From contig OX639973.1 in assembly GCA_951828385.1 (NCBI GenBank), positions 3,029,200-3,093,199 of the forward strand: a stretch of 64,000 bases of DNA, in the 5' to 3' direction. Positions within the stretch are counted from its first letter, which is position 1, and every line of letters starts with the position of its first letter. A program made the position numbers and the translations under genes. Source of the stretch: an uncultured Poribacteria bacterium. Lineage in GTDB: Bacteria > Poribacteria > WGA-4E > WGA-3G. The notes under the pieces are model-generated. The model saw nothing but the letters and a program-made list of their open reading frames with translations. It searched no databases and had not been told where the DNA came from. This document shows positions 29,317 through 63,877 of this stretch, in pieces.

Positions 29317-29353
29317 AACACGGAACACTGACTCATTCAGGGAACAAAATACA

Positions 29354-31438: not shown

Positions 31439-31481
31439 AATGTAAGACACTGAATCCCAAATCTGTTAAGGAGTGGATACC

Positions 31482-44718: not shown

Positions 44719-44723
44719 ATTAA

Positions 44724-45986
44724 ATGTTTCTCAAATCAATCCATCTAAACAATGTCAAATGTTTTTCTGATATTGCTTTATCTTATGAAGACGAGAATGG
44801 CGACATCCGCAAGTGGACCCTCTTGCTGGCTGAAAATGGCATGGGGAAGAGTACACTGCTGAAAGCTATCGCCTTGGTAACTGGCGGCAGTGACGCGATA
44901 GCCGACCTGTTAGGGGAACCCTCCGACTGGATCCGGTACAAAACGCAGAGGTGTGAAATTTCAGCCGTTTTGGTTACAACGGAAGGAGAGGAACGCGAGG
45001 TTCGCTTACAGATCGCGCCCGAAGATACCCGCGCCGATGTCATCAGGAAAAACGAACAGAGTCTCGCCTGGCTTGATGACGCACTCAACGAAAAAAAGAG
45101 AGACTATTTTGTTCTCGGTTTCGGTGCGTCCCGCCATCTCAATGCAGCAAACACTCGAAGAACAAAAACATCGGAATTCACAAACAAAAGAGCACAACGC
45201 GTCGCTACCCTATTCAACCCCGATGCGACCACCAAACCGATCGATTCCTGGGCAATGGACCTCGACTACATAGGAAACGGCACTGCACTGGAAACCGTCC
45301 GAAAGGTACTCAGCAATCTACTACCGGAGATAAAGTTTCACAGCATTGATAAACAGAATGGGCACTTACTGTTTGAGACTCCAGATGGTATTGTGCCGTT
45401 ACATTGTCTCAGCGACGGGTATCTCGCAATGGCAGCTTGGATAGGCGACTTGTTGTTCCAAATTTCAGAAGTCTCTGGTGACGCACAGGAAAAACCGCTT
45501 ACCGCAAAGGGACTCCTCCTCATTGATGAGGTCGACCTGCATCTCCATCCAAAGCGGCAACGCCAACTATTATCGCTTCTTAACAAATGGTTACCGAATT
45601 TTCAGTTCGTTGTAACGACGCACTCGCCCATGGCCGCGCAACAGGCAGGTGAAGGTGAACTTCACTATTTGACGCGCGAAAGAGGGAAAATTCACCTCTA
45701 TCCATTTTCCGGTGCCCCTAACACGCTCCTTTTACACCAACTGGTAATGTCTCCCGCGTTCGGGTTAGATACCGATGAGTCAAAATCGGTTGAGGACATG
45801 AAGAACCGATACCGCTCCCTCCGGGACAAAGCGGATCTGTCGTCTAAGGAGCAAGCGGAATTGGATAAACTAACTACCGTCATTACTGAACTGCCCCTTG
45901 GCGGTAGAGCAAGTATGATACTTTCTGAAGAACATGAGCAGCTCCTGCGAAAAATTGAGCAAGAATTGCAGGAGGGCACAGCGTGA
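44724..45986 (+). CDS. AAA family ATPase (SMC/RecF-like), helicase partner
   Basis: A 420-residue ABC-type AAA ATPase. N-terminal IHLNNVKCFSDIAL leads to Walker A LLAENGMGKSTLLKAI near residue 36. The C-terminal half has Walker B LLIDEVDLHLHPKRQRQ near 263 and the switch VVTTHSPMAAQQ near 291, then a helical tail. No TOPRIM domain follows, unlike OLD proteins, so any nuclease must be separate. It lies 5 bases after the helicase stop and shares its promoter. It is not closely similar to the ATPase at 33687. A sensor or loading role in the same system is inferred. Confidence 0.85.
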   Translation: MFLKSIHLNNVKCFSDIALSYEDENGDIRKWTLLLAENGMGKSTLLKAIALVTGGSDAIADLLGEPSDWIRYKTQRCEISAVLVTTEGEEREVRLQIAPEDTRADVIRKNEQSLAWLDDALNEKKRDYFVLGFGASRHLNAANTRRTKTSEFTNKRAQRVATLFNPDATTKPIDSWAMDLDYIGNGTALETVRKVLSNLLPEIKFHSIDKQNGHLLFETPDGIVPLHCLSDGYLAMAAWIGDLLFQISEVSGDAQEKPLTAKGLLLIDEVDLHLHPKRQRQLLSLLNKWLPNFQFVVTTHSPMAAQQAGEGELHYLTRERGKIHLYPFSGAPNTLLLHQLVMSPAFGLDTDESKSVEDMKNRYRSLRDKADLSSKEQAELDKLTTVITELPLGGRASMILSEEHEQLLRKIEQELQEGTA

Positions 45987-45994
45987 TACGTCTA

Positions 45995-46086
45995 ATACCA
46001 AATTACCCTAAATCGTAGGGGCAGGGTTTCCCTGCCCACCCGTGTTCTCGGCAGCGAAAACAATACAAATCTCGTTAATTTGGTAT
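45995..46086. repeat. 92-bp MITE-like element with 11-bp terminal inverted repeats
   Basis: ATACCAAATTA (45995-46005) and TAATTTGGTAT (46076-46086) are perfect inverted ends. Inside is a GC-rich hairpin, GGGGCAGGG (46018-46026) against CCCTGCCC (46030-46037). It sits directly after the ATPase stop codon; the hairpin could also end the upstream transcript. Confidence 0.75.
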
Positions 46087-46177
46087 AAGTCCGATTTCGC
46101 GCCACTACAGGTCTTCATCAAGGTTAAAAACCCCTCCTAACAGGATTCTTAAAATCGTCCAAAGTTCAGTAATAAAT

Positions 46178-46219
46178 TTGACTTACTACATTAAATATGT
46201 TATCATATATAATGTAGTA
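46178..46219 (+). promoter_or_regulatory. Promoter overlapped by an operator-like palindrome
   Basis: TTGACT (46178-46183) and TATCAT (46201-46206) are 17 bp apart. A palindrome with 16-bp arms and a single mismatch (46184-46199 and 46204-46219, loop TTAT) covers the spacer and -10 box. That position is typical of a repressor operator. It lies about 740 bp before the DUF1156 gene. Confidence 0.5.
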
Positions 46220-46291
46220 GCTCCCTGAAAAAACAACAAAGATGAAGCAATGTGGACATCACATAACTCACCGTGATTTTTTGTATTTGTA

Positions 46292-46312
46292 GCACAAACT
46301 TTTAGTTTGTGC
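46292..46312. repeat. Hairpin GCACAAAC/GTTTGTGC
   Basis: A perfect 8-bp stem with a 5-nt loop (46292-46299 with 46305-46312). Similar AATTTGTGCC sequence recurs at about 46835. No U tract follows; it appears to be a short dispersed palindromic repeat. Confidence 0.5.
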
Positions 46313-46721
46313 CTGATGAAACACAATCTAATGAAGGGATTTTGACATCACATAAATTAACGAACGTTAACCGGAGAAATTCGTATTTCATGAACAACCT
46401 CAAAACAAACCATATCTATCAAACGCCGCTAAGTCAATCAAACACTACATTTGTGGCACCTCGGAAAGACACCAACGAAAATTAAAATTACCCAATTGTT
46501 CACGAAAATTCCATAAACTTAGAATTCAACAACGCCACAAACCCTTATGATCGCTGACTTTACACCCTTTACATAGAGCGAAAAACAATCGCGAACAATT
46601 GCATGAACATTAATGAACATCGTCAGAAAAGAACAATACATACAAAACCAATTTTCCGCCACAAATGCACGTATCTAAAGGGTTCATAATCCACGAAATC
46701 ACGAACACAAGAATTCAACGC

Positions 46722-46780
46722 GTCGCGAATGTTCGCGAATGTTCATGAAATTTCGCGCTATGTTCACGAAATGTTCATGA
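46722..46780. repeat. Array of GAATGTTCRYGAA-like motifs
   Basis: About five degenerate copies of GAA(A)TGTTC followed by GC, AC or AT recur with roughly 10-12 bp spacing. Many are locally palindromic (TTCGCGAA, TTCATGAA). Looser copies extend back to about 46495. It lies upstream of the methyltransferase start and could bind a regulator or be a decayed repeat. Confidence 0.5.
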
Positions 46781-46960
46781 TTTACCCCTCAGAAATCTAT
46801 TACCGTGAATTTTATATTTTTATACCAAACCGTTAATTTGTGCCTCCGTAGCATAGACTGTTATATTGTCTCCGCGTTTGCCCGGGGACAGAACTCACAG
46901 AAAAGTACCACATCATACCATTTCTGGATAACCGTTTGTCATGTAGGAAGGAAAACCAAA

Positions 46961-49876
46961 TTGCCACGTAGACTCATTGAAGAAGCCTTCCCATTGAAAA
47001 AGGTCTCTAAAGACTCAAAACATGAAAAGAATGTGCGCCACGGGCACATCTCCACGCTCCACATCTGGCCCGCACGCCGTCCGCTTGCGGCCTGCCGTGC
47101 TGTGACAATAGCGACTCTGCTCCCCGATCCCGCCGATGCACCCGAAAAAATGAAGGCGGAATACACACGTCTTTCCGGTTCACCACTACCTGAAAAACAG
47201 CGTGAATACTTGTGTGACGATCTGATTGCTTCACTAACACGATGGGGTGACGAAAATGGACACGCCGATTGGGATGCAAAAGATAAAAACGGCCGGTGGC
47301 TCAATAAACTCCGTATCGCCAGAGAGCTTATTCTGATGGCATACAACGGAGACCCGCCGAAAGTGCTGGATATGTTTGCAGGCGGTGGCGCAATCCCGCT
47401 TGAAGCGATGCGACTCGGTTGTAAAGCGATAGCGAACGACTATAATCCAGTAGCGTGGTTTCTTCTCAAATGCACACTTGAATACCCGCAACGTCTTTCA
47501 GGAAAAACAACGCCGATTCCTGAACTTAAACTCGCTGAAAAACCCGATGTGAAAAAGGGAGATCTCGCCGATCATGTCCGCTTGTGGGGACAGTGGGTTT
47601 TGGAAAATGCCCGCAAGGAACTCACGCAGTACTATCCTATAATTGATGGCAAGCCAACCGTCGCCTATCTCTGGGCAAGAACTATTCCGTGTCAAGACCC
47701 ACAGTGTAGGGCGACGGTGCCGTTACTCAAGACGTTATGGGTTTGCAAGAAAGCAGAGAAAACCCTTAAAGATACACCAGAAAATCGGAACCGTCCTGAC
47801 TTTCTCCGACTCAAAGAAACAAAAAACCAGACGAAAGTCGTCATCAACGGAAAGCGCACCCTCAAACTCTACCCGGATTCTGAAACGAAGCAGGTCCGTT
47901 TTGAGATTATTACACCGAAAAAAACAACAGATGTTGGTGAACCTACAATGTCCAGGGCAACAGCAACCTGTCCGTTTTGTGAATCGCAGCAGCCGACGGA
48001 CTACATCAAACGGTGCGGACATGAGGGAAAACTCAAGGCACAGATGACAACCGTCGTTTACCAAGCGGAATACGGCAAAGAGTATCGTCTACCAACACAA
48101 GCAGAAATAGACGCGGCAGAGGTATCAGAAAAAGCATTGGAGGCAATTGCCGATGAAATTCCCTATGGAATGCCTGATGAACCGATGCCGGGGCCTCAAA
48201 AACTCGGATTTACTATCCCACTCTACGGTTTCAAAAAATGGTCAGATCTGTTCACAAATCGGCAGTTGTTCGCATTGATGACATTTGTAAAGTGGACGCG
48301 CGCTGCACAAGGTGAGATGGATAAATTCGGGTATTCAGCAGAATGGATTGAGGCAATTGAGATATATTTGTCAATACTTGTAGATCGAATTACTGATTAT
48401 AATTCTGCAATCTGTACGTGGCATAACAGCGGGGAAAAGATGCGAGATACTTTTGCTAGATTCGCGTTGCCGATAGTTTGGGATTTTGCTGAACTGAATC
48501 CTTTTTCTAAGTTTACGGGAGGGTATTTCGCTCACATTGGTTGGGTTGTGCGTTTTCTCGCAAACGTACTTGCAGCAAAATTGACTTCTGAACCTTGTAT
48601 CAATCAGCAATCAAGCCTCTGTCAAGTCAGTCAAACGATTGACGCAATCATTACGGATCCGCCATACTATGACGCTATTCCTTACGCAGATCTTTCTGAT
48701 TTCTTCTACGTGTGGCTCCGACGATCAATTGGAGATCAATTCCCGGATGTTTTCACTGAGGCACTCACACCAAAATTTGATGAGCTCGTCCAACATTCAG
48801 ACCATTTTGATGGGGATAATAAGGCAGCAAGGGAATTTTATGAATCTGGCATGACTACTACTTTTCAATCTGCCCATAGTTCACTGACAGAAAACGGACG
48901 AATAGTCGTTGTCTTCGCTCATAAGGATCCGAACGCTTGGGAAACGTTAACAACAGCGATGATTCAAGCGGGCCTTGTCGTTACTGCGTCATGGCCTATT
49001 GATACCGAAATGGGTAATCGTATTCGTGGAATGAACTCAGCCGCTCTTGCAACATCGCTGTGGCTTGTCTGTCGAAAACGTCCCACGAAGGCGAAAGTAG
49101 GTCATTACGGCAAAGTCAAGCGCGAAATGCAGCAACGGATTACGGAACGCCTCCGTTATTTCTGGGATGTCGGGATTCGGGGCCCCGACTTCGTTTGGGC
49201 AGCCATCGGACCTGCCCTGGAAAGCTACTCCAGTTACAAAGCAGTCAAATGGAATACAGGTGAACTTTTCACGGTGACAGAGTTTCTCACAGAGGTACGG
49301 CGGATGGTAACCGATTTCGCATTGGGGCAAATACTGCACGGCGCAAGTACGGAGGCATTGGACGAATGGACTCGCTACTATCTGATGCACAAAGACTACT
49401 TCGGCACAGAAAACGCACCCGTGGGCGAGTGTATTCTCTTGGCACAAGGCTATGGCGTGCCACTCGACGATTTACGAGACCGACACATCGGCATATTGAA
49501 GAAAGTCAGTTCTGGCAACGCACTCAAACTCCTCGGACATACCGAACGCACTTCAGACCGAATCGGTTATGCTCACACTTCCGGGAGAATTCCCATGATA
49601 GACATGATCCACAGGATCATGAGACTGTGGGATGCAGGCGAAAGAGAGCAAATCAACGCCTACTTCCACGAGCATGGACTTCAAGAGAACCCTCTTTTCA
49701 AGGCTGTTGTTCAGGCACTCATCGAAACGAGTCCCGAAGGTGCCAGTGAAAGGTCGCTTATGGAAACACTCATCAATTACGAACCGGGTGAACCGGTAAG
49801 CGGCGTTTCCAATTCTGGACGGTCAAATCCCGACGAAGTCCAACTCCGACTCCCGCTTGGCGAAAGTTCGTCGTGA
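46961..49876 (+). CDS. DUF1156 adenine-specific DNA methyltransferase with Zn ribbon
   Basis: A 971-residue DNA methyltransferase. It starts with the DUF1156 block (LPRRLIEEAFPLKKVS, then HGHISTLHIWPARRPLAACR). SAM motif I is MLDMFAGGGAIPLEAM-like (DMFAGGG) and the catalytic motif is ITDPPYYDAIPYADLSDFFY. Between them are zinc-ribbon cysteines (PCQDPQC, CPFCESQQ). The start chosen is TTG at 46961, with AGGAAGGA about 8 bases upstream; the longer open frame to 46805 adds residues unlike the family. It probably marks self DNA as N6-methyladenine for the locus. It is separated from the helicase pair by a regulatory gap and precedes the MNT-DUF499 pair. Confidence 0.88.
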   Translation: MPRRLIEEAFPLKKVSKDSKHEKNVRHGHISTLHIWPARRPLAACRAVTIATLLPDPADAPEKMKAEYTRLSGSPLPEKQREYLCDDLIASLTRWGDENGHADWDAKDKNGRWLNKLRIARELILMAYNGDPPKVLDMFAGGGAIPLEAMRLGCKAIANDYNPVAWFLLKCTLEYPQRLSGKTTPIPELKLAEKPDVKKGDLADHVRLWGQWVLENARKELTQYYPIIDGKPTVAYLWARTIPCQDPQCRATVPLLKTLWVCKKAEKTLKDTPENRNRPDFLRLKETKNQTKVVINGKRTLKLYPDSETKQVRFEIITPKKTTDVGEPTMSRATATCPFCESQQPTDYIKRCGHEGKLKAQMTTVVYQAEYGKEYRLPTQAEIDAAEVSEKALEAIADEIPYGMPDEPMPGPQKLGFTIPLYGFKKWSDLFTNRQLFALMTFVKWTRAAQGEMDKFGYSAEWIEAIEIYLSILVDRITDYNSAICTWHNSGEKMRDTFARFALPIVWDFAELNPFSKFTGGYFAHIGWVVRFLANVLAAKLTSEPCINQQSSLCQVSQTIDAIITDPPYYDAIPYADLSDFFYVWLRRSIGDQFPDVFTEALTPKFDELVQHSDHFDGDNKAAREFYESGMTTTFQSAHSSLTENGRIVVVFAHKDPNAWETLTTAMIQAGLVVTASWPIDTEMGNRIRGMNSAALATSLWLVCRKRPTKAKVGHYGKVKREMQQRITERLRYFWDVGIRGPDFVWAAIGPALESYSSYKAVKWNTGELFTVTEFLTEVRRMVTDFALGQILHGASTEALDEWTRYYLMHKDYFGTENAPVGECILLAQGYGVPLDDLRDRHIGILKKVSSGNALKLLGHTERTSDRIGYAHTSGRIPMIDMIHRIMRLWDAGEREQINAYFHEHGLQENPLFKAVVQALIETSPEGASERSLMETLINYEPGEPVSGVSNSGRSNPDEVQLRLPLGESSS

Positions 49877-49908
49877 TAAGTCCATGTAAAAGTGATCATC
49901 TTTTCTGG

Positions 49909-49938
49909 TTGACTTTGACGGACAAATCGTGTTAGACT
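49909..49938 (+). promoter_or_regulatory. Promoter of the MNT-DUF499 pair
   Basis: TTGACT (49909-49914) and TAGACT (49933-49938) are 18 bp apart, with TGT just before the -10 box (extended -10-like). The TAGACTATGCG block matches that of the helicase promoter at 41192. It lies about 80 bp before the MNT start. Confidence 0.5.
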
Positions 49939-50018
49939 ATGCGATACAACGTATGACAAGACTTATCAACGATTTGCTAAGATCCATTGGGTAAGCGGTA
50001 AACGCGCGGAGGGGCATC

Positions 50019-50306
50019 ATGATTGAGGAACTGAAAAAAATAATCGCAGAAAAAAGAGACGAAATACGCAAGCAGTACAAAGCGCAGATTGTAGCTGTTT
50101 TTGGTTCTTATGCGCGCGGTGATTTTCACGCAGATAGCGATTTAGACCTTTTGGTGGATATGGATCCCGGTGCCAGTCTATTTGATCTTGTTGGTCTTCA
50201 ACACTTTTTGGAAGACAGACTCGGATGTAAGGTGGATGTGGGGACGCGAAACTCACTCCGAGAGGAGCTGCGGGAGTCCGTGTTCAGCGAAGCCATATAT
50301 CTATAA
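50019..50306 (+). CDS. MNT-domain nucleotidyltransferase (MntA-like)
   Basis: A 95-residue minimal nucleotidyltransferase with GSYARGDFHADSDLDLLVDM at residues 29-48, the Gly-Ser and Asp-x-Asp active site. It is intact and closely similar to the broken copy at 40787. MntA proteins adenylylate and block HEPN ribonucleases, but no small HEPN gene is adjacent. GGAGGGG precedes the ATG. Its stop lies 20 bases before DUF499, indicating one transcript. It could have been recruited as a regulator or modifying subunit of the defence locus. Confidence 0.88.
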   Translation: MIEELKKIIAEKRDEIRKQYKAQIVAVFGSYARGDFHADSDLDLLVDMDPGASLFDLVGLQHFLEDRLGCKVDVGTRNSLREELRESVFSEAIYL

Positions 50307-50326
50307 GATGGAAGAGGAACAAGCCC

Positions 50327-53300
50327 ATGGGCAATAACGCATGGCATGAACATTGTATCTTAAGAGATGATGTCCGACAAGGCACACTCGAACTCGCAGA
50401 ATTCGCAGCAGACCTCTACGCCGTGCGAACCGGAGCCGCGCCCAACGTCTATCGAGTCCCCAATCTCTTTTTTGACCGCACCTATCCGACCTACAACCTC
50501 AAAACGCTGGCGCGAGATGTACTCCGACGGTTAGCCGGACAAGGTGGCAACCCCGTTATCACTGTCCAAGTCGCTTATGGTGGCGGAAAAACGCATGCAC
50601 TCATTGCCCTCTTGCATTTAGCCCAGCGAGGTGCCGAACTCCAAACACACGATACCGTCCGGGAGTTCGTAGCATCCAGCGGCTTAGATACATTGCCCCA
50701 GGCAAGAGTCGCTATTCTACCCTTTGATAAGTTTGACGTGAAAAATGGTCTTTCAGTGATCGGACCTGACGGTCAACACCGACAGGTTAAAACACCTTGG
50801 GGCGCGTTGGCATATCAACTCGCTGGCAATAAAGGACTCGCAATCGTAGCCGAGCATGAAACCGATTATATCAACCCTGCTGAACATACGCTCGTTGACC
50901 TGCTCAAAATGCCACAAAGCGAAGGGCTGTCCACCCTCATCTTGCTTGATGAGGCACTCATGTATACACGGGCTGCTGTCAATGATGATCCCAAACGGTT
51001 CGGAATCCTTCAAGATTTCTTCCAGGCACTTACACAAGCGGTCGATAAAATTAGCACTGCTGCAATCGTCGCCAGCCTCATCACTTCCGATATTGTCGGT
51101 GAAGATCCAACCGGCGTTCGCGTCTTAAATATGTTGGAAGGCGTGTTTCGACGTCTGGAAGAAAACGTTGAACCCGTCTCACGAGAAGACATTTCGGAAT
51201 TGCTCCGCCGGCGATTGTTTGAACATATTCCACCAGAGAAAACACGCAGGGCCGTTGTGGACACCCTCCTCGCTGCCAGACAAAAACTGCCACTCCGAGA
51301 GGCAGATAAGCATCAAGAAGCGTTCGACGCACTCTTGCGGTCTTATCCATTTCACCCAGATTTCATTGAAGTCTTCTACCAAAAGTGGACGCAACTCGGT
51401 AACTTCCAAGGTACCCGCGGTATGTTTCGCACCTTCGCGCTTCTCCTAAGAGATGCCACCGGAAAAGACCCAGCAGCATTCATCGGCCCAAGCGCGCTCC
51501 TTACGACCGGTGCTGAACTGTCAGAGGCCGTTCAAGAACTCATTAAAGCCTGTGAGGAAGGCACGCAGTGGACACCGATTCTTACGGGTGAACTCGAAAG
51601 AGCCCGAAATGTTCAGAAAAACCTCCCGCTGCTCAAAACCAGAGAAGTTGAAAGTGCCGTGCTATCCACCTTTTTACATTCGCAACCAGCCGGACAGAAA
51701 GCAGAATTGGCGCACCTCTATCTGCTGCTTGCACACGCCGACATTGACGCGATGTCGGTTCAACAGGGGCTTTCCGACTGGCGATCGGTCTCCTGGTTCC
51801 TCAAAGAAAACGATAGCAGTTGGGCTTTAGGAACAACGCCTAATCTTACCAACATGCACGTCCGCGCTATGGATAGACTCGCTCCAGAAGACATTGATGA
51901 AGACTTAGTACGGCGGATAAGAGATGCCAGCCTCGGTCGGAACGCCGATGCGGTTGCCGTTCACACATTACCGCAGTCAACTGCTGATATCAGCGACAAT
52001 CCCGAACTTCACTTCATCATCGCGGATCCAGAACACGCAGCGGTGCCAGGAGCGGAAATACCGCCCGAACTCAAAACGTTTTTTGAAAGAACCTACCGAA
52101 ATAACATCATCATCCTTGCTCCCGAAAACTCACTACTCACAGGATTGCGACAACGGATTCGCAAAATCCTTGGTTGGCAGAATATCGAAAGCGGCGACGA
52201 TATGAACCTTTTGAACGGAACGCAGAAGGCACTCCTCTTACAACGAAAGCAAGAAGATGAGACCGGTATTTTGGAGTCTGTCACAGCGGCTTATAGCGTG
52301 CTAATTGCCCTTGACGAAGAAGGCGACATCAAAGCAAGTACGTTGCCACCAGGAACAGACCGGCCTTTTCAACGCGTCAAAACCGCGCTGATCGCCGAAG
52401 ATAGGTTGTTGACAGACTCACTTGATCCTGAACTGCTCACACCGGACAGTTACCTTGATATTTGGGGAGAGGACGAAACCACTAAACCCGTTCAAGGCTT
52501 ATACAGGATGTTTGCAAGTCTGCCGCGCCTACCGCGCTTGTTAAATCGACAGGTATTCATAGACACACTTCGGCGCGGTCTAAAAGAAGGTCAGATTGTT
52601 TTACGCATCGTCCGTCCAGATGGTTCTCAGAATACCTATTGGCGCGAGGCATCCATCACGGACGAAGATATCTGGAACAAAACGTTAGAAATTGCTTCGA
52701 TTGAGCACGCGGAACTTCATGACCTTAGTGCTGAATTATTAGTGCCGGGACAACTGCCAGGATTGTGGCAAGGTGATAGTGTTCCAATAACGGTAGACAC
52801 AATTCGGGAATTTTTTGATGGAGACGAAATACCAAAACTCACGGCTGACGATGTTCTCGTAGAAGCCATCCAGTCTGCTGTTCAAAATGGCTTACTCATG
52901 GCACGCCGTAAAGATAAGGCATATCTTAGAGAACCCATCCCTGACGCGGAGATAACCGACGATCTGGAATTGCTTATGCCATTAGAACCTATTAGCGGTT
53001 CAGAAATCAGTCACAAAACTCTGCCGGACGCGTGGGAGAACGAAACGTCATCCGTCGGTAAGATAATGCACAGGTTAGCAGTGCTCAAAGGTTCTCCAAT
53101 CCCGTGGGCATTGGTTGTTGATGCTATCAACGACGCTGAAAATAAAAGACTCTTTGAATTTGTTGAGGGTAGTCCATCGTGGCCCTGTGCTGCTGAAGAA
53201 GCCGATAGAGTCGGTTTAAAAGTTTCACAGGCACCTGTGAAAATAGCACCAACAGATCTCATTGGAACTGATGCAATAGCCGCGTGGGAATCTGGAAGCC

Positions 53301-53671
53301 CCACACTCGCATTGATTAAAGAGGTACTTGAAGCCAAAAGAGGTATTTCCATTCCTGATGATGTGTTCCGTTATGCTGTAGAACAGGCTATTAAAGTTGG
53401 AATAATTGCCTCGGATGAGTCTTTAACCAATGGATTTTACAAAATTCGTGTACGGAAACCCGCGTGGATGCGCCATGCTGAATCCCATCTTACCGAAATT
53501 GAAATCCAGGATTTGGCTGAAGCGGTCGCTGATTTGGCGGATATTGCACCTGAACTCGACTTTAAGTTTCGCGTCACAATTACCGCCGAGGGCGAACCTC
53601 CATCAAATGAAGTGCTGGAAAAGATAAACGAAGTACTCCAGAAGGTCACAGATAAACTGAAGTTTGATTAA
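50327..53671 (+). CDS. DUF499 AAA+ ATPase
   Basis: A 1114-residue ATPase of the DUF499 family. The N-terminal part has QGTLELAEFAADLYAV, FFDRTYPTYNLK and Walker A VAYGGGKTHALIAL near residue 82. Walker B is LILLDEALMYTRAA near 205. The central domain has arginine-rich helices, and the C-terminal end includes RVTITAEGEPP, a beta region. DUF499 proteins often occur beside DUF1156 methyltransferases and SNF2 helicases in defence islands, as here. It should form the energy-using part of the complex. GGAAGAGGA lies just before the ATG. Confidence 0.9.
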   Translation: MGNNAWHEHCILRDDVRQGTLELAEFAADLYAVRTGAAPNVYRVPNLFFDRTYPTYNLKTLARDVLRRLAGQGGNPVITVQVAYGGGKTHALIALLHLAQRGAELQTHDTVREFVASSGLDTLPQARVAILPFDKFDVKNGLSVIGPDGQHRQVKTPWGALAYQLAGNKGLAIVAEHETDYINPAEHTLVDLLKMPQSEGLSTLILLDEALMYTRAAVNDDPKRFGILQDFFQALTQAVDKISTAAIVASLITSDIVGEDPTGVRVLNMLEGVFRRLEENVEPVSREDISELLRRRLFEHIPPEKTRRAVVDTLLAARQKLPLREADKHQEAFDALLRSYPFHPDFIEVFYQKWTQLGNFQGTRGMFRTFALLLRDATGKDPAAFIGPSALLTTGAELSEAVQELIKACEEGTQWTPILTGELERARNVQKNLPLLKTREVESAVLSTFLHSQPAGQKAELAHLYLLLAHADIDAMSVQQGLSDWRSVSWFLKENDSSWALGTTPNLTNMHVRAMDRLAPEDIDEDLVRRIRDASLGRNADAVAVHTLPQSTADISDNPELHFIIADPEHAAVPGAEIPPELKTFFERTYRNNIIILAPENSLLTGLRQRIRKILGWQNIESGDDMNLLNGTQKALLLQRKQEDETGILESVTAAYSVLIALDEEGDIKASTLPPGTDRPFQRVKTALIAEDRLLTDSLDPELLTPDSYLDIWGEDETTKPVQGLYRMFASLPRLPRLLNRQVFIDTLRRGLKEGQIVLRIVRPDGSQNTYWREASITDEDIWNKTLEIASIEHAELHDLSAELLVPGQLPGLWQGDSVPITVDTIREFFDGDEIPKLTADDVLVEAIQSAVQNGLLMARRKDKAYLREPIPDAEITDDLELLMPLEPISGSEISHKTLPDAWENETSSVGKIMHRLAVLKGSPIPWALVVDAINDAENKRLFEFVEGSPSWPCAAEEADRVGLKVSQAPVKIAPTDLIGTDAIAAWESGSPTLALIKEVLEAKRGISIPDDVFRYAVEQAIKVGIIASDESLTNGFYKIRVRKPAWMRHAESHLTEIEIQDLAEAVADLADIAPELDFKFRVTITAEGEPPSNEVLEKINEVLQKVTDKLKFD

Positions 53672-54949: not shown

Positions 54950-55525
54950 ATGATACCAGATGATGTGTACGTACACCAAACGGTAGAGGGTGATGCCGAG
55001 GCATTCAACGAGCTCGTGAATCGGCATCATTCAAAGATTTATGGGCTTGCATATCGGATGCTCGGTAATCCCGATGATGCCGCCGATGCAACCCAAGAAA
55101 CATTTTTAGAAGCATACAAGTCCGTTAAAACGTTCCAATTTCAGTCGCAGTTCGGCACTTGGCTATACCGCATCGGTATCAACACATGCCAGCAGTATAT
55201 CCGTAAATCGCAATCAAACGATCGGAAACTGACCGCTTACACCAGAGAGGCGGAAATCCATGGGCCCGCTTCTGAGAACGATTCGCCGGAACGCATGGCG
55301 ATTCAAACCGAGCAGAATGAGATCGTTCAAGATGCCATCGGTCAGTTGCCGCCAAAGCAACGCGAGGTCGTCACGCTCTATTACATGCAACACCTCAAGT
55401 ATCGGGAAATTGCGGAGATATTGAAATGTTCAGAAGGCACGGTCGCCTCCCGGTTGAACCAGGCACTGAAAAATCTCAAGCGGAAGCTGAGCAAATATTA
55501 TCTCCAAGGAGGGGTATCCCAATGA
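54950..55525 (+). CDS. ECF-type RNA polymerase sigma factor
   Basis: A 191-residue group IV sigma factor. Region 2 contains AFNELVNRHHSKIYGLAYRM and NPDDAADATQETFLEAY (core binding and -10 recognition). Region 4 has LPPKQREVVTLYYMQHLKYREIAEIL and the helix-turn-helix CSEGTVASRLNQALKNLK. It would redirect transcription to an envelope-stress or similar regulon. Its stop overlaps the anti-sigma gene start by 4 bases (ATGA), indicating translational coupling and control by that partner. Confidence 0.95.
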   Translation: MIPDDVYVHQTVEGDAEAFNELVNRHHSKIYGLAYRMLGNPDDAADATQETFLEAYKSVKTFQFQSQFGTWLYRIGINTCQQYIRKSQSNDRKLTAYTREAEIHGPASENDSPERMAIQTEQNEIVQDAIGQLPPKQREVVTLYYMQHLKYREIAEILKCSEGTVASRLNQALKNLKRKLSKYYLQGGVSQ

Positions 55526-56241
55526 ATTGCGAACAGACGCTTAACAATTTGCCTCATTTCGTCGTAGAAAAGAGCCCAGAAACGACGGACAGAGTTTCTG
55601 CAGGAACGCCGCAACGTGCTGTATTGGAACATCTTCGGAGCTGCCCAGAATGTCAGATGGCATACGAAGCATTGTGGCATACCGCCAGTGTACTGGAGAG
55701 CACAGATGAACCTGTTCCGCCACCGGAATTAGCCGGTAACATTCAGGCGCGCGTACGCGAACTCCATCAACGGAAGCAACTCGCATTTTTTGCGAATCCA
55801 TTGGCGTGGTGTCTTGATCGGCTGAAGCTGGATTTCTCTCCGCGGGTTGTTAACGCTACTGCATTAATTCTCTTTTTCATGGCCTCCGGTTTTACCGCTA
55901 AACTTGCGTTTTTTACAAACCCACCCGAACCAGATTCTGGCTTGATCGCAATGAAAAAGACAATGCTCAACAACATCAGAATCTCCACGTCTCCGTGGGC
56001 GGTGCTTAAAGATACTGAAACACACACGGAAGATGGACGGACATCGCAGCAGTCAATAGTGGCTGTCAAAGGTGAGCATAATCACTTCTTTAATTCAACG
56101 CTAAATTCATCGAAGATATGGCACGCGGAGACGCCAGATGCTAACGGACACACGGGTGAAACGAGCGTTGCTAATTATTTACAAAACAAGGTGAGCGAAA
56201 AACTAACCGTGTTTTGGGATAACATTAAAACAGAATTGTAG
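55522..56241 (+). CDS. Zinc-finger anti-sigma factor, membrane-anchored
   Basis: A 239-residue regulator of the ECF factor just upstream. The N-terminal anti-sigma zinc motif is HLRSCPECQMAYE near residue 33 (His-x3-Cys-x2-Cys). A single hydrophobic segment (VNATALILFFMASGFTAKLAFF) near residue 115 would place the rest outside the membrane. The start ATG at 55522 overlaps the sigma stop; the longer open frame to 55426 is not used. The C-terminal part is not recognised and may be the sensor. It would hold the sigma factor until an envelope signal appears. Confidence 0.88.
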   Translation: MNCEQTLNNLPHFVVEKSPETTDRVSAGTPQRAVLEHLRSCPECQMAYEALWHTASVLESTDEPVPPPELAGNIQARVRELHQRKQLAFFANPLAWCLDRLKLDFSPRVVNATALILFFMASGFTAKLAFFTNPPEPDSGLIAMKKTMLNNIRISTSPWAVLKDTETHTEDGRTSQQSIVAVKGEHNHFFNSTLNSSKIWHAETPDANGHTGETSVANYLQNKVSEKLTVFWDNIKTEL

Positions 56242-56424: not shown

Positions 56425-56453
56425 TTGACATATAACCATTTTTCATGTATAAT
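56425..56453 (+). promoter_or_regulatory. Consensus sigma-70 promoter of the oligopeptide transporter operon
   Basis: TTGACA (56425-56430) and TATAAT (56448-56453) are both perfect and 17 bp apart. Transcription would begin near 56460. This leaves only about 8 nt before the first in-frame ATG (56468) but about 26 nt before the second (56486), favouring the latter as the start. Confidence 0.8.
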
Positions 56454-56485
56454 AGCCCAAATCTGGCATGCTGGAAAGCAAGAGA

Positions 56486-57526
56486 ATGGCTTCAACACAA
56501 GAAACATCTTATCAAGCACCGCTTCTGGAAATTTCTGGATTAAAGACAGTCTTCCCAACAGACGACGGCATCGTAAACGCCGTAAACGATGTCAGTTTCT
56601 CTATTGCACGCGGGCAGACTGTAGGTGTTGTCGGTGAAAGCGGTTGTGGGAAAAGTATCACGGGACTTTCGCTGCTCCAACTCGTGCCATCTCCGGGCAG
56701 AATTGAAGCCGGTGAAATTCTATTTTACCGTAATGGCGGTGACGAACCCTTGGATATTACACAGGTACCGCCGAAAAGCGAGTTGATACGCCAGATCCGA
56801 GGCAACGAAATAGCCATCATTTTCCAAGAACCGATGACCTCACTGAATCCGGTTTATACCGTTGGAGACCAGATTGCCGAAGCCGTCGCCCTACATGAAC
56901 AGGTTGATAAAAAAACTGCCCGCGAACGTGCAATTGAGATGCTCGTCCGCGTCGGTATCCCTGCCCCAACACAACGCGTCGATGAGTACCCACACCAACT
57001 CTCAGGTGGTATGCGCCAACGCGTCATGATCGCAATGGCACTCTGCTGTTCACCGGCACTGCTCATCGCAGATGAACCGACGACTGCCCTTGATGTCACC
57101 ATCCAAGCACAGGTACTCGGACTCATGCAAGAACTCCAAGCGGAAATGGGGATGGCGATTATGCTGATTACACACGACCTCGGCGTGATCGCTGACCTCG
57201 CCGATGAAGTGGTCGTCATGTACTCAGGACGTGTCGTTGAAAGAGGAAGCGTTGATGACATCTTCTATAATCCGTTGCATCCCTACACACAAGGCTTGCT
57301 CAGGTCTATTCCTGTTCTCGGTAGGACAGTACAGAAGACTTTACCCTCTATACCGGGAACGGTACCACACCCACTATCACTGCCAACGGGGTGTTCCTTT
57401 CAGCCTCGCTGTCCTGAACGGATGCCAGAATGTGAGCAGATGCCCGAACTTGCGTTAATTAACGAACAAACAGACAATGATAAACACGCTGTGCGATGCT
57501 GGCTTCACACTGACCAACAAGGATAA
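56486..57526 (+). CDS. Oligopeptide/dipeptide ABC transporter ATPase (OppD/DppD-like)
   Basis: A 346-residue ATPase powering peptide import. Walker A is [17 protein letters not shown] near residue 44, Q-loop [15 protein letters not shown] near 109, signature [17 protein letters not shown] near 164 and Walker [15 protein letters not shown] near 185. The C-terminal oligopeptide-transport domain carries the [14 protein letters not shown] cysteines. ATG 56486 is preferred because of promoter position and a GGAAAG/AGAG ribosome site. It is the first gene of the operon with the paired ATPase, binding protein and two permeases. Confidence 0.92.
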
Positions 57527-57637: not shown

Positions 57638-58636
57638 ATGGCAAAACTGCTTCAGGTAAGCGACCTCCGAAAATACTTCCCTATACAGAAAGGGATCTTT
57701 CAACGCACCGTCGGTTATGTAAAAGCGGTGGACGGGATTAGTTTTGATGTGCAACGCGGCGAAACGCTTGGCCTCGTCGGTGAAAGCGGCTGTGGAAAAA
57801 CGACTGCCGGCCGATGCCTCCTCCGATTAATACCGGCTACAAGTGGCAGTTTCATTTTCGGCGAGGAACAAGTGGATTTGGCGACATTGACGCACCGCGA
57901 GATGCAACCTTTTCGTAGGCGGATCCAAATGATCTTCCAAGACCCGCATGCATCGCTCAACCCACGAATGACGGTAGCAGATATCGTCGGGGAACCGATG
58001 CGTGTCAATCGCACCGAGAAAGGGACGGCACTTCAGGATCGGATCGTGGAATTACTTGAATCTGTTGGCTTGCGATCACAGGATATGCGCCGGTATCCAC
58101 ACGCCTTTAGCGGCGGTCAACGCCAACGCATCGGCATCGCGCGGGCGTTAGCACTCCAACCGGAACTCATCGTCGCAGATGAGCCAGTCTCGGCGTTAGA
58201 TGTCTCGGTGCAAGCGCAAATTCTCAACCTGTTGGCAGAACTTCGCGAACAGTTCAATCTCTCTTACATCTTTATCGCACACGATCTCAGCGTTGTCGAA
58301 CACATCAGTGACCGTGTCGCGGTCATGTATCTCGGCAAAATTGTCGAGATTAGCGATGCAGAAACGCTCTATGAATCACCGAAGCATCCGTATACAGAGG
58401 CGTTAATATCCGCTGTGCCGCTCCCGGATCCGAATGCGCAGCGGAAACGTGAGCATATTCGACTTGAAGGCGATGTGCCCGATCCGTCGCAGCCACCGAC
58501 TGGCTGCTACTTTCATCCGAGATGCCGTTATGCAACCGATCTATGTAAACAGGAAACACCGGAACTCCGAGAGGTTGCACCGAGGGTTCAGGTCGCATGT
58601 CACCACAGTGATACGTTGGAGCTACAGGGGGTATAA
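57638..58636 (+). CDS. Oligopeptide/dipeptide ABC transporter ATPase (OppF/DppF-like)
   Basis: A 332-residue second ATPase of the transporter. Walker A is [19 protein letters not shown] near residue 47, Q-loop [17 protein letters not shown] near 100, signature [15 protein letters not shown] near 154 and Walker [15 protein letters not shown] near 176. The C-terminal [14 protein letters not shown] segment marks the Opp/Dpp subgroup. It works as a heterodimer with the preceding ATPase on the inner face of the membrane. Its stop lies 2 bases before the MNT-HEPN gene, so they share a transcript. Confidence 0.92.
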
Positions 58637-58638
58637 CC

Positions 58639-59598
58639 ATGCCAAATCAGAAAATGTCTCCAGATGAACTCTCGGCATGCAGAAAGCGGTTGGAACAGGT
58701 ATGGAAAAACCGAATCGTGGACGAAGGATTACTTCATCAGGCGTGGCACACCGCGCACGAGATAGCGGCACTCCTTTACGAACAGTTCGGTGCAACCCAA
58801 GTCTTCGTCTTCGGTTCACTCACAGAACCGATGCAGTTCACGAAGGGATCAGATATCGATATCGCTGTGTCAGGACTCTCCAACGATGCCTACGATAAAG
58901 CGTACGGAAAGGTTATATACTTCGATGCTCCGTTCAAAATAGACTTTATCAATTTTGATAGGTTGAAAGGGCTTTTCCGAGAACGAGTCAAACACCAAGC
59001 GATCCCTATCAAACGAGGTGAGCGACCCCGCAATGGTGTGACAGATGTGTGGCAAACCCTTTATGAACATCTTCAGCAACAAGTTTTCCCCACCGAAGAG
59101 GGAGACATTTACGAAATGAACCGAAAAAGACTCACACAACGCATCAACGATGAACTTGATAAAATAGACGGAATACTTGAAAGAATCCAAAGAGGCTTGG
59201 ATAGTATTGATGTGCTACCTGTTGCGGCAAGGGAATTCATTGAAAATACAATCGCTACGGATCTCGCCGATATCTATAGAGGCATAGAGAATATTTTTCT
59301 GCGAATTGCCCGTGAGGTGGATATGCACGTGCCGACGGGGAGTAGATGGCACAAAAATCTCCTTGCACAAATGACGGAACAACGACCAGAACGTCCCCCC
59401 GTAATTTCTGAAAATATATCTCTTCAATTGGAAGCTCTTTTGGATTTTCGTCACAAGGTGAACAATATCTACGGCAAAGAATTGAGATATGAAAAGACCA
59501 TACCGCATGCAAAATCCATCGACGCACTATTTGCAAGCGTGTCTCAAGACCTAAATACGTTCACTGACTCCCTCGAAAAGCGTGAAGAGGATGCTTAA
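58639..59598 (+). CDS. Fused MNT nucleotidyltransferase-HEPN-like protein
   Basis: A 319-residue fusion of the two parts of an MntA/HepT-type toxin-antitoxin pair. The N-terminal MNT domain has FVFGSLTEPMQFTKGSDIDIAV near residues 52-75. The C-terminal half (from about 155) is all-helical and ends in the HEPN-like segment LLDFRHKVNNIYGKEL near 277. In it, the catalytic His of the usual Arg-x4-6-His motif reads Asn; related HepT-like proteins can show this too. GGGGG precedes the ATG. It lies between the transporter ATPase and the binding protein, 2 and 1 bases from each, though it has no obvious link to transport. Confidence 0.8.
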   Translation: MPNQKMSPDELSACRKRLEQVWKNRIVDEGLLHQAWHTAHEIAALLYEQFGATQVFVFGSLTEPMQFTKGSDIDIAVSGLSNDAYDKAYGKVIYFDAPFKIDFINFDRLKGLFRERVKHQAIPIKRGERPRNGVTDVWQTLYEHLQQQVFPTEEGDIYEMNRKRLTQRINDELDKIDGILERIQRGLDSIDVLPVAAREFIENTIATDLADIYRGIENIFLRIAREVDMHVPTGSRWHKNLLAQMTEQRPERPPVISENISLQLEALLDFRHKVNNIYGKELRYEKTIPHAKSIDALFASVSQDLNTFTDSLEKREEDA

Positions 59599-59599
59599 A

Positions 59600-61555
59600 A
59601 TGCGAAAATCAACAAAAACATCTCAGATCGCAATGTGGCATCTCATTAAAGGAATGTTCATCTTGCTAATTTTCATCGCGGGATGTTCGGGAAACCCGTT
59701 AGAAGATGTTTCCGATTTCCCCCGTGGGGTTGAGGCGAAAGAGGCACCGATGTGGGCAAAACAGGTCGCGGAAGGTAAACTCCCGCCACTCTCAGAACGG
59801 CTGCCAGAAAACCCACTTATCGCCAAAACGGATTTTGACGGATATGAGCGTCCGGGGCCCTACGGTGGGACATGGCACAGGTTCCATACACACCCAGATT
59901 TAGGTACGTGGAAGATGACAGCAGGATATGCCCCGCTCATCCGCTGGAAATTTGATGCCTCTGGTTTGGAACCCGGTTTAGCAGAGTCGTGGGAGTTTAA
60001 TGAAGACGGCAGTATGCTGACGTTGCATCTGCGTACAGGTGTCAAATGGTCGGATGGACATCCTTATACTTCCGCCTCCTTCGCTTACTATTATCAACTC
60101 TGTCTTGATGAGCGGCACAAATACGGCGCGCCTGTCTGGTGTAAGGTCAACGGCATTCCGATGGAAGTTGAAACCCCCGATGACTATACAATTGTGATGA
60201 AATTCGCCGGTCCCAACTGGCTCGTACCGCTTTGGTTAGCGACCGGTTTTTGGTGGTGCAATCAATACAACATCCCAGCGCACTACATGCAGCAGTTCCA
60301 CCCAGACAGCAACCCAGCGTATACCGATTTCATCCGATTCGAGAAAGAAAATATCCCACATCAAAACCCGGAGCGTCCGACGCTGTGGCCCTGGCGGGTG
60401 ACAAAATACGAAAAGGGTGGCTTTCGCGTTGAACTTGAACGCAATCCGTATTATTACGTCGTCGATACACTCGGCAGACAACTCCCTTACATCGACAAAA
60501 TCAAGACAAGTTTGGTCCCCGAACCCCAAGTTCGCGTGCTTAAAATCCTCGCGGGCGAGATTGACTGCCAATATCGCGGAATGGAACTCCGCGATCTGGC
60601 ACTCTATCTGAAAGGACAGAAGAAAGGTGGCTATCAGGTCCGGCGGTGGAAAAGCACGGCTGGCGCGCAACCGGCTATCCTGATAAACTGGACCGCGCCC
60701 GATCCAGAGTTAAGAAAACTCATCCGCGACCAGCGATTCCGTAAAGCACTCGCTTATGGTATTGACCGCGTGAAATGTAATGAAATCGCATGGCGTGGTT
60801 TGTTGGAGCCGCAGGCAGCGACGGTTAGCCAAGAAGGATGGCACTTCGCTGATGAAGATGGTCAGACCCTCTTTGAAGAGTGGAAACGCGCAGATGCGGA
60901 TTTCGATATCGCCGCGGGCAATCGCCTCTTAGATGAAATGGGACTCACCGCGCGTGATAAAGACGGTTATAGACTACGTCCCGATGGTAAGCGCATTGAG
61001 ATACTCATGGATGTTCCAAGTTCTAATCTCAACAGCCAAGAGAACGACATCGGATTGATTATTCAAGACGGATGGGAGCAGCTCGGTTTGGAAACCTTGC
61101 TCTATACGCCGCCCGGTGCCGAATTGAGTCTCCGCCGCACACTCGGTAAATTCACAATCAGTATGCACGGTGAAGCAGAGATGGATCTTTTTACGTATCC
61201 GGATTGGGTGTTTCCGACGCTCGCAAAGTACTGGCACCCGAAGGTCGGGAAGTGGTATGAAACCGGTGGTGAAAAGGGGGAACCTCCCACTGGACCGCTC
61301 AAGAAACTGCTTGACTTATACGATGCGATTAAACGCGAACCTGACGAGAAACAGCGGCACCAATACGTTCGGGATGCGGTTAGAATTCACATTGACGAGG
61401 GACCGTTTCACCTCGGTTCCGCAGCGCGTTCGCCGTCGCTCTTGGTCGTCGCTGACCATTTTCACAACGTGCCAAATGACGGCATTTTAGGGCCGTGGGC
61501 GATTGTCACACCAGCGACCCATTACCCTGAACAGTGTTGGATATCTAAGGAATAG
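59600..61555 (+). CDS. ABC transporter peptide-binding lipoprotein (SBP family 5)
   Basis: A 651-residue extracytoplasmic solute-binding protein. The signal ends in the lipobox LIFIAGC (Cys near residue 29). Family 5 landmarks are LAESWEFNEDGSMLTLHLRTGVKWSDG near residue 125 and FRKALAYGIDRVK near 385. It is longer than the roughly 530-550 residues common in DppA/OppA, as in some large-substrate binders. The ATG at 59600 is used because GAAGAGG lies 9 bases upstream and it gives a good signal; a GTG at 59582 and ATG at 59591 are possible. It captures the substrate for the two permeases that follow. Confidence 0.92.
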   Translation: MRKSTKTSQIAMWHLIKGMFILLIFIAGCSGNPLEDVSDFPRGVEAKEAPMWAKQVAEGKLPPLSERLPENPLIAKTDFDGYERPGPYGGTWHRFHTHPDLGTWKMTAGYAPLIRWKFDASGLEPGLAESWEFNEDGSMLTLHLRTGVKWSDGHPYTSASFAYYYQLCLDERHKYGAPVWCKVNGIPMEVETPDDYTIVMKFAGPNWLVPLWLATGFWWCNQYNIPAHYMQQFHPDSNPAYTDFIRFEKENIPHQNPERPTLWPWRVTKYEKGGFRVELERNPYYYVVDTLGRQLPYIDKIKTSLVPEPQVRVLKILAGEIDCQYRGMELRDLALYLKGQKKGGYQVRRWKSTAGAQPAILINWTAPDPELRKLIRDQRFRKALAYGIDRVKCNEIAWRGLLEPQAATVSQEGWHFADEDGQTLFEEWKRADADFDIAAGNRLLDEMGLTARDKDGYRLRPDGKRIEILMDVPSSNLNSQENDIGLIIQDGWEQLGLETLLYTPPGAELSLRRTLGKFTISMHGEAEMDLFTYPDWVFPTLAKYWHPKVGKWYETGGEKGEPPTGPLKKLLDLYDAIKREPDEKQRHQYVRDAVRIHIDEGPFHLGSAARSPSLLVVADHFHNVPNDGILGPWAIVTPATHYPEQCWISKE

Positions 61556-61679: not shown

Positions 61680-62666
61680 ATAATTACCTATATCATTCGC
61701 CGATGTCTCATCGCTGTTCCGACACTTCTGGCGATTTCTATCATCTCTTTCATTATTATCCAACTGCCGCAAGGCGATTATCTTGACCGCGAAATTCAAC
61801 GGTTAGAGGAGGAGTTCGGCGATAGCAGTTCGCTCGCACAAGTCGAGGAATTGCGCGAACGCTACGGGTTGAACGCACCATTGTGGAAACGTTACCTCAT
61901 CTGGATAAGCGGCTTTGTTCGCGGTAACTTCGGTGAGTCGTTTGAATATAAACGCGAAGTCGATGAACTGATATGGGACCGCATCGCCTTTACGCTCGTT
62001 ATCTCTGTCGGATCGCTTATTTTCACTTATGTAGTCGCTATCCCGCTCGGGATTTATTCCGCAACGCATCAATACAAATGGTCTGATCACCTCCTCACCT
62101 TCCTCAGCTTCGTCGGGATGTCGATACCGGCGTTTCTCTTGGCACTCTCGTTGATGGTATTTGCGTTTGAAATCTTTGGTGTTCCGCTATTTGGGCTATT
62201 CTCGGCTTACTATGAAGGCGCACCGTGGACGTGGGGTAAACTGAGCGACCTGATCACACACCTCTGGATTCCAGTGATTGTGGTCGGTATTAACGGGACC
62301 GCGAGTTTAATGCGGATCATGCGCGGTAACCTCCTGGACGTGTTAGGGCAGCCGTTTGTGCAAACCGCGCGGGCAAAAGGGCTTAAAGAGATCGTCGTGG
62401 TCAGTAAGCACGCGGTGCGAATTGCGATCAATCCACTCATCAGTATTTTAGGGATGAGTCTGCCCGGCATCCTCTCGGGTTCAGCGATTGTCTCAATTGT
62501 ATTGGGATTACCGACAGTCGGTCCGATTTTGCTGAACAGTCTGCTGAACGAGGACATCTATCTTGCTGGCACACTGATTATGATGTTGAGTCTCCTTTTA
62601 GTTATCGGCAATCTGATCGCAGATATAGCCTTAGCATGGGTAGATCCGAGGATTCGTTATGAATGA
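61680..62666 (+). CDS. ABC transporter permease (OppB/DppB-like), AUA start
   Basis: A 329-residue inner-membrane permease. The N-terminal helix ITYIIRRCLIAVPTLLAISI is typical of the family's first segment and starts immediately after the proposed start. An in-frame TAA at 61659-61661 blocks any start further up, and no ATG, GTG or TTG lies between it and this helix. AGGAG at 61667-61671 is 8 bases before the ATA, so AUA is the best start codon, a very rare one. The next start codon would remove the first helix. The conserved permease loop is seen as ARAKGLKEIVVVSKHAVR. Alternatively, the start ATG was changed by the repeat just upstream. Confidence 0.85.
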   Translation: MITYIIRRCLIAVPTLLAISIISFIIIQLPQGDYLDREIQRLEEEFGDSSSLAQVEELRERYGLNAPLWKRYLIWISGFVRGNFGESFEYKREVDELIWDRIAFTLVISVGSLIFTYVVAIPLGIYSATHQYKWSDHLLTFLSFVGMSIPAFLLALSLMVFAFEIFGVPLFGLFSAYYEGAPWTWGKLSDLITHLWIPVIVVGINGTASLMRIMRGNLLDVLGQPFVQTARAKGLKEIVVVSKHAVRIAINPLISILGMSLPGILSGSAIVSIVLGLPTVGPILLNSLLNEDIYLAGTLIMMLSLLLVIGNLIADIALAWVDPRIRYE

Positions 62667-62782: not shown

Positions 62783-63877
62783 ATGAAACTTACAATCGAG
62801 ACAACAGAAAATATTGAGGGTGCAGACGATCCTTGGACAGATGGGGGGCAGTTAAGTTATCGCCAATTGATCTGGCGGCGGTTCCGCAAGAATCGGATGG
62901 GGGTTATCGCTGGCGCGCTCTTGCTTCTTTTTTACATGCTTGCGATCGGCGCAGACTTTTTCGCACCTTATCACTATAACGAAATCAACATGCGCCTGCG
63001 GCACGTACCGCCGCAACGCCTTCATTTCTCAGTCAGTGACGGGTTCTATGTTCACGGTTTGAAATCCGTCCGCAACCCAGAAAGTCTTGAGTTAGAGTTC
63101 ACGAAAGATATGGAGCAACGGCATCCGGTTGAATTCTTTTTCAAGGATGCCGACGGTAGGCGACACCTGTTCAGTTCCGCGGGTCCCATGTTCCTATTAG
63201 GCACTGATCGGATGGGGCGCGATCTGCTCTCACGGATCATGTTCGGTGCACGGGTGTCGATGACACTCGGCTTGGTCGGTGTCCTTTTGAGTATCGTTCT
63301 CGGTTCTATCCTCGGCACTGTATCTGGATACTGGGGGGGATGGGTCGATAACCTGATCCAACGGATTATTGAGATTCTATCGGCGTTCCCTGACATCCCG
63401 TTGTGGATGGCACTCGGGGCCGCACTCCCACCGGGGTGGTCAAGCATCCAAATATACTTCGGGATTACGATTATTTTGTCGATTATCCGTTGGGGTGGAT
63501 TGGCACGGCAGGTGCGTGGAAAGGTCTTGGCGTATCGGGAGAGCGATTTCGTGATGGCGGCGCGTGCCGCCGGTGCGGGACACTGGCACATTATCACCAA
63601 GCATCTATTGCCTGGATGTTATAGCCATATCATCGTTATCGCGACACTTGCGATCCCCGGCATGATTTTGGGGGAGACCGCGCTCAGTTTTTTAGGGCTG
63701 GGGATCCGTCCGCCGATGACGAGTTGGGGCGTACTTTTAGAAGAGGCACAGCGCGTCACCGTTCTACTCCATTATCCGTGGCTCATTTTCCCAGCGGTGC
63801 CGGTGCTTATCGTTGTCATCGCTTTTAACTTCTTAGGAGATGCCCTCCGAGATGCCGCAGATCCATATTCAGATTAA
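62783..63877 (+). CDS. ABC transporter permease (OppC/DppC-like)
   Basis: A 364-residue second permease. The N-terminal cytoplasmic part ends in the OppC_N helix RMGVIAGALLLLFYMLAI near residue 40. The core has LLGTDRMGRDLLSRIMFGARVS near 140 and the coupling loop MAARAAGAGHWHIITKHLLPGC near 258. It pairs with the first permease to form the channel. There is no good ribosome site before the ATG. An insert of about 60 residues after the first helix (RLRHVPPQRLHFSVSDGF region) is seen in related transporters for larger substrates. Confidence 0.92.
   Translation: MKLTIETTENIEGADDPWTDGGQLSYRQLIWRRFRKNRMGVIAGALLLLFYMLAIGADFFAPYHYNEINMRLRHVPPQRLHFSVSDGFYVHGLKSVRNPESLELEFTKDMEQRHPVEFFFKDADGRRHLFSSAGPMFLLGTDRMGRDLLSRIMFGARVSMTLGLVGVLLSIVLGSILGTVSGYWGGWVDNLIQRIIEILSAFPDIPLWMALGAALPPGWSSIQIYFGITIILSIIRWGGLARQVRGKVLAYRESDFVMAARAAGAGHWHIITKHLLPGCYSHIIVIATLAIPGMILGETALSFLGLGIRPPMTSWGVLLEEAQRVTVLLHYPWLIFPAVPVLIVVIAFNFLGDALRDAADPYSD

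Follow-up and report, generated by a model that had tools for sequence, protein, structure and literature searches.

A fused MNT-HEPN protein related to a known toxin-antitoxin pair is a long-standing resident of a peptide-type transporter operon in Poribacteria

The window analysed here, i.e., the whole stretch of 64,000 nucleotides, belongs to a Candidatus Poribacteria genome that consists of one contig of 6.66 Mb. It contains, in this order, genes for an ECF sigma factor and a putative anti-sigma factor, oppD, oppF, a gene encoding an MNT-HEPN fusion protein (mnt-hepn), the gene of an SBP_bac_5 lipoprotein and two permease genes. The features of this locus are as follows:

54950 to 56241, plus strand: ECF sigma factor gene (assigned by Pfam) and putative anti-sigma gene (label from position), upstream of the operon
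56425 to 56453, plus strand: sigma-70 promoter of the operon, agreeing with the consensus at 12/12 positions and conserved across the window's genus and in a single sister genus
56468 to 57526, plus strand: OppD/DppD-type ABC ATPase, by profile matches
57638 to 58636, plus strand: OppF/DppF-type ABC ATPase (NF008453, 412 bits, above cut-off)
58639 to 59598, plus strand: mnt-hepn fusion gene, an ORF of 319 aa with a dN/dS of about 0.17
58753 to 59028, plus strand: MNT (minimal nucleotidyltransferase) domain, residues about 39-130, by Polbeta and NTP_transf_2 profile matches and a fold match to MntA
58813 to 58860, plus strand: MNT catalytic motif G59-S60-x11-D72-I-D74, from the family alignment (115 rows)
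58942 to 58944, plus strand: D102, putative third carboxylate of the MNT active site, invariant in 115/115 family rows, its role by analogy with MntA D71 (PMC7641770)
59251 to 59571, plus strand: HepT-like_2 (HEPN) domain, residues 205-311, by PF20797 (95.1 bits) and a fold match to HepT
59347 to 59352, plus strand: W237-H238, nearly invariant in the family and its outgroups
59449 to 59472, plus strand: R271-H272-x3-N276-x-Y278, the RX4HXY site with Asn for His (Asn at 59464-59466, Tyr278 at 59470-59472)
59600 to 61555, plus strand: SBP_bac_5 lipoprotein (peptide/nickel-type binding protein), by profile match, with a lipobox IAGC read from the sequence
61683 to 62666, plus strand: permease gene labelled OppB, start codon uncertain, placed by operon order and by a position beside the binding-protein gene that is conserved in relatives
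62783 to 63877, plus strand: permease gene labelled OppC, placed by operon order and by a position conserved in relatives

Both ATPases (ABC_tran and oligo_HPY) and the binding protein score above their profile cut-offs and thus define a Dpp/Opp-type ABC transporter operon, in which the permeases are placed by order and position only. As the preliminary description had stated, mnt-hepn lies between the ATPase and binding-protein genes with spacings of 2 and 1 bases: oppF ends at 58636, and the ATG of the binding-protein gene (59600) follows one base after the mnt-hepn stop at 59598, an overlapping GTG start at 59582 also being possible. The promoter upstream of oppD (TTGACA-17-TATAAT, 12/12) matches the consensus at 11 or 12 of 12 positions in 10/10 relatives checked, which belong to the window's genus and one sister genus, and is unrecognisable in both loci checked from the genus g3. 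On the plus strand, from oppD to the end of mnt-hepn, we found no terminator-like site, and no further promoter-like site ahead of mnt-hepn. Co-transcription of mnt-hepn with the opp operon is likely as judged from sequence, which agrees with the promoter sharing proposed earlier. Most relatives whose flanking sequence is long enough also have the ECF sigma and putative anti-sigma genes beside the transporter operon.

The HEPN domain of the 319-aa protein matches PF20797 at residues 205-311 with an E-value of 3.4e-27 (95.1 bits against a cut-off of 27). The MNT half scores just under the cut-offs for Polbeta (25.6 bits against 26.9) and NTP_transf_2 (19.8 against 21), and the NCBIfam MntA profile gives 18.8 (cut-off 60); several mnt-hepn paralogues pass the Polbeta cut-off. 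An AlphaFold model based on a 22-sequence alignment (mean pLDDT 78.5, pTM 0.51) is locally good, with an uncertain domain orientation. Foldseek comparisons with the PDB match the N-terminal part of this model to structures of MntA/MNT antitoxins and the C-terminal part to those of HepT/HEPN toxins, AMPylated ones among them; the matches have probabilities of 1.00, but E-values above 0.001, and include 8xeo for MNT (TM by target 0.72) and 7ae6 for HEPN (0.74). A sequence search of solved structures with the single 319-aa protein gave no match, a profile search of solved structures gave weak MNT matches only, the remainder apparently being coiled-coil noise, and an Rfam search of the window returned no match. 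The single ORF, the domain profiles and the fold matches together uphold the earlier view of an MNT and a HEPN domain fused in one polypeptide; the protein is a PF20797 HEPN fused to MNT, which is a known kind of protein.

Both active-site motifs depart from those of the HepT/MntA type VII toxin-antitoxin systems (S. oneidensis SO_3166/SO_3165, L. pneumophila HEPN-MNT). The MNT motif GS-x11-DID, complemented by D102, is one residue longer than GSX10DXD; G59, S60, D72 and D102 are invariant in 115/115 family rows and D74 in 114/115. The HEPN motif reads F270-R271-H272-K-V-N275-N276-I-Y278, with Asn276 at the His position of RX4H, so that R-x4-N-x-Y is found instead of the type VII motif RX4HXY; R271, H272, N276 and Y278 are invariant in 33/33 Opp-clade rows. 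Hence, the protein shares with type VII systems the MNT and HEPN folds, the GS...DXD motif and the positions of the Arg and the AMP-acceptor Tyr, but differs from them in being one polypeptide (also in close relatives), in both motifs, in belonging to PF20797 rather than PF01934 or PF08780, and in being fixed inside a metabolic operon. Since two genes and RX4HXY are defining features of type VII, we do not file the protein as a type VII toxin-antitoxin.

The preliminary description had correctly recognised Asn at the position of the HEPN active-site His, a residue now seen to be fixed in the Opp lineage, and had proposed that a loss of ribonuclease activity might have turned the protein into a regulator. 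Our comparisons do not bear out this second step. In the 82 paralogue rows, Asn is the usual residue at position 276 (69 rows), followed by Tyr (9), His (2), Cys (1) and Arg (1), and R271 and Y278 are nearly invariant; His is retained by fused relatives from other families of the phylum (FRHLFRHTY, FRHRLRHIY). Proteins with PF20797 in two other phyla, mostly encoded beside a separate MNT gene, carry motifs such as FRHVVRNIY and FRHFFRHSY, and the PF20797 proteins with a neighbouring MNT have 10 H, 8 N, 3 Y and 2 S at the His position (6 not scored); these counts are approximate, as the motif was located by regular expression, and include a few split pairs of the window's own phylum and of other origin. 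These split pairs share with mnt-hepn the HEPN family, the WH and FRH..Y signatures and, in many cases, the Asn, but consist of two genes. R271, H272 and W237-H238 are nearly invariant in the fused family and in the split-pair proteins alike. Given that Asn is about as common as His in split pairs and that fused relatives elsewhere have His, the exchange shows neither domestication nor loss of RNase activity, and we reject it as a sign of the former. Asn is thus an old variant within the family, tied neither to the fusion nor to the transporter. Moreover, mutating R and H of RX4HXY hardly affects the RNase activity of the Legionella HEPN toxin (PMC11586414), so the RNase state of the protein is not readable from Asn276. 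A caution follows for such proteins in general, namely that loss of the HEPN His should not be read as loss of function.

The frequent Asn in split pairs, along with the fact that PF20797 proteins outside the phylum mostly adjoin separate MNT genes, as in toxin-antitoxin pairs, would also suit a passenger module of the toxin-antitoxin or phage-defence kind. This would be an RNase that acts conditionally, is kept in check by AMPylation and uses the operon for its expression only, with no effect on transport; the conserved R271, H272 and H238 could serve it as alternative catalytic residues. An orthologue of 69-86% identity lies in the operon, next to oppF and/or the binding-protein gene, in 29 of 38 genomes of the window's genus (the present genome included), and the linkage to transporter genes extends to three further genera, i.e., four in all, with the spacing of 2 and 1 bases conserved or replaced by overlap. 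Orthologues this similar in the same place exclude chance placement, and a recent chance insertion was rejected, as the linkage spans four genera. In the sister genus g4, oppF and the binding-protein gene are separated by two tandem copies; in g3, oppF is followed by one to three copies, and a dehydrogenase gene stands in place of the binding-protein and permease genes; in g2, mnt-hepn precedes the binding-protein gene. Hence, a relative of a known toxin-antitoxin pair has long been resident in a peptide-type transporter operon of Poribacteria. The preliminary description had suggested looking for the gene between oppF and the binding-protein gene of other genomes, where it is now found, and had named as contrary evidence its absence from the operon of all relatives together with an intact His in other copies; this combination is not what we find.

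Two observations on these loci stand apart. The middle one of three tandem copies after oppF in g3 (L060, L062) keeps RX4HXY (RHVFAHLY) and branches deeply. In one genus, ORFs of 577, 553 and 528 aa lie between oppF and mnt-hepn (L075 1379-6361), those of 553 and 528 aa encoding DNA methylase plus Mrr-type nuclease proteins.

The remaining nine of the 38 genomes lack mnt-hepn and all retain the transporter, with binding proteins 91-95% identical. Deletion scars persist in three of them: 20 N-terminal residues in frame with the last 36, about 30 N-terminal residues joined to the last 40, and, at L139 (G016), the first 20 residues fused in frame to the signal region of the binding protein, where the lipoprotein may have gained a longer N-terminus through the in-frame deletion. 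In the other six, the binding-protein gene follows oppF almost directly. Because of these scars and of the presence of the gene in other genera, we read the absences as losses, and a tree of oppF and binding-protein DNA places at least seven independent ones in the window's genus; a G038 locus, whose copy of 54-56% identity lies below the 65% filter, is counted here as having the gene. Hence, mnt-hepn is dispensable for the operon, and so is any control of transport that it may exert; such repeated clean losses, in which the transporter genes survive, speak against its being important for transport.

The idea of a passenger module explains well the losses, the tandem duplication to up to three copies and the relaxed constraint described below, but the fact that each lineage has kept to a single chromosomal place across genera speaks against it. 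Furthermore, addiction depends on toxin and antitoxin differing in stability, which a single polypeptide does not allow; as the two moieties could not decay separately, the fused pair would not be a classical addiction module. No defence genes adjoin mnt-hepn, and PADLOC gave for the protein weak matches to candidate MNT models only. We regard a passenger module as rather unlikely.

Stability of place is not confined to the Opp lineage. The same genome contains, near 4.60 Mb (L007 5596-15274), three more copies, one beside genes for an E1 dehydrogenase and a DUF6785 protein, and two in tandem next to a VWA-CoxE gene; one copy of this pair has lost the HEPN motif. Across genomes, a second lineage lies between the TPP-dependent E1 dehydrogenase gene and the DUF6785 gene, and a third, in one to three copies, ahead of the VWA-CoxE gene, both as firmly fixed in their loci as the Opp lineage. 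The family tree requires 9 context changes, compared with 57 in shuffles, so that context is strongly clustered; the three lineages separated before the genera split and then held their places. We rejected a mobile element, the genomic contexts being stable on the tree.

Locus-specific lineages with their own neighbours (OppDF and the binding protein; E1 dehydrogenase and DUF6785; VWA-CoxE) would be explained if the protein AMPylated a neighbouring protein or a ligand, in the manner of GlnE, GlnD and the aminoglycoside nucleotidyltransferases, with the HEPN domain a mere substrate platform. The target would be OppD/OppF or some other protein encoded in the operon, each paralogue acting in its own locus. 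Like mnt-hepn, GlnE/GlnD, KNTase/ANT and DrrA combine a nucleotidyltransferase with a HEPN fold thought to be non-catalytic, and the prevailing view of fused HEPNs is that they are inactive and serve in substrate binding or regulation (PMC3710099); AAD(9) and AadA are also among the top Foldseek matches, with full-length alignments and poor superposition. However, those enzymes modify another substrate, whereas mnt-hepn keeps the acceptor-type motif with its R, N and Y, which the C-terminal domains of aminoglycoside type lack (PMC3710099); the fused outgroups even retain the full RX4HXY, and the operon persists in nine genomes without the gene. We consider AMPylation of another molecule unlikely.

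Selection on the gene is purifying and weaker than on its neighbours. The median pairwise dN/dS is 0.17 for mnt-hepn, 0.03 for oppF and 0.05 for the binding-protein gene, i.e., the constraint is 3-5 times weaker; dS is near 1, so the values are approximate, but their ranking is clear. The two halves are alike (MNT 0.15, HEPN 0.17), and 84 residues are invariant in the Opp clade, both active-site motifs among them. A gene in decay with little present function would fit the frequent deletions, the in-frame scars and one degenerate paralogue of the same genome without the motif (L003, RYLFLCRSM); the level of dN/dS and the invariant motifs speak against it, and the selection result largely excludes decay, which we hold to be very improbable.

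The reading we tentatively prefer, while rating it as possible rather than probable, is that of an MNT-HEPN switch, fixed in its position but dispensable, which would AMPylate itself, be expressed along with the transporter, follow the ATP supply in its state and act via RNA. It would be a vertically inherited relative of type VII (HepT/MntA) systems, with both halves in a single polypeptide and its gene transcribed together with those of a peptide-type ABC transporter. Since MntA AMPylates the Tyr of RX4HXY (PMC7641770), Tyr278 is the presumed AMP acceptor, and the conserved MNT site together with this Tyr suggests that the protein AMPylates itself: the MNT half would use ATP to modify Tyr278 of its own HEPN half or that of a dimer partner. 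The ratio of modified to unmodified HEPN may then follow the ATP supply, as the degree of AMPylation in Legionella has been proposed to depend on ATP concentration (PMC11586414); nucleotide sensing may reasonably be inferred from type VII biochemistry. Unmodified HEPN would act on RNA, by weak cleavage or binding, and so damp the expression of its own operon or growth, and the switch would be accessory, as the operon survives without mnt-hepn. Catalysis, modification of Tyr278, RNA as the target and an effect on the operon are what we infer, and the invariant MNT residues, R271 and Y278, the MntA and HepT folds, the operon spacing, the conserved promoter, the locus-fixed lineages and a dN/dS of similar size in both domains are points in favour of the switch. 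The repeated losses and the weaker constraint count against it, and the reach from the MNT site to Tyr278 would hang on a domain orientation that is uncertain in the model (pTM 0.51).

That fused toxin-antitoxin pairs, MNT-HEPN proteins with an inactive HEPN among them, were domesticated into regulatory nucleotidyltransferases has already been proposed by Anantharaman et al. (2013; PMC3710099). A search of open-licence papers found none on the mnt-hepn gene in Poribacteria. MtlR of the mannitol operon likewise has a HEPN fold, which often lacks the catalytic motif, and its gene too belongs to a transporter operon (PMC3710099), but it has no MNT domain, belongs to another HEPN family, and its effect on the operon is known by experiment. 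Among the readings weighed here, we regard an accessory self-modifying switch as the most likely for mnt-hepn, and do not take the gene as proof of a new kind of regulator. A broader view seems to us distinctly doubtful, in which a toxin-antitoxin module gave rise, in Poribacteria, to a set of MNT-HEPN switches that AMPylate themselves and are each dedicated to one operon, adjusting a single transporter or metabolic locus to the ATP supply. The family provides natural test material for the domestication idea, comprising three locus-specific lineages, fused relatives with His, split pairs in which either His or Asn occurs, and the seven or more deletions that arose naturally within a single genus.

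Elsewhere in the window, an Hma-type defence island recognised by PADLOC (41266-53671) encodes the helicase HmaA, the methylase HmaB and the AAA+ ATPase HmaC; it also contains a gene for a PtuA-like ATPase and, just upstream of HmaC, a stand-alone MNT gene of 95 aa (50019-50306). A two-gene system at 33687-35449 matches HEC-01A/HEC-01B in PADLOC, and a tandem run of large WD40-type repeat proteins, which are close copies of one another as read from their translations, occupies 27103-33538.
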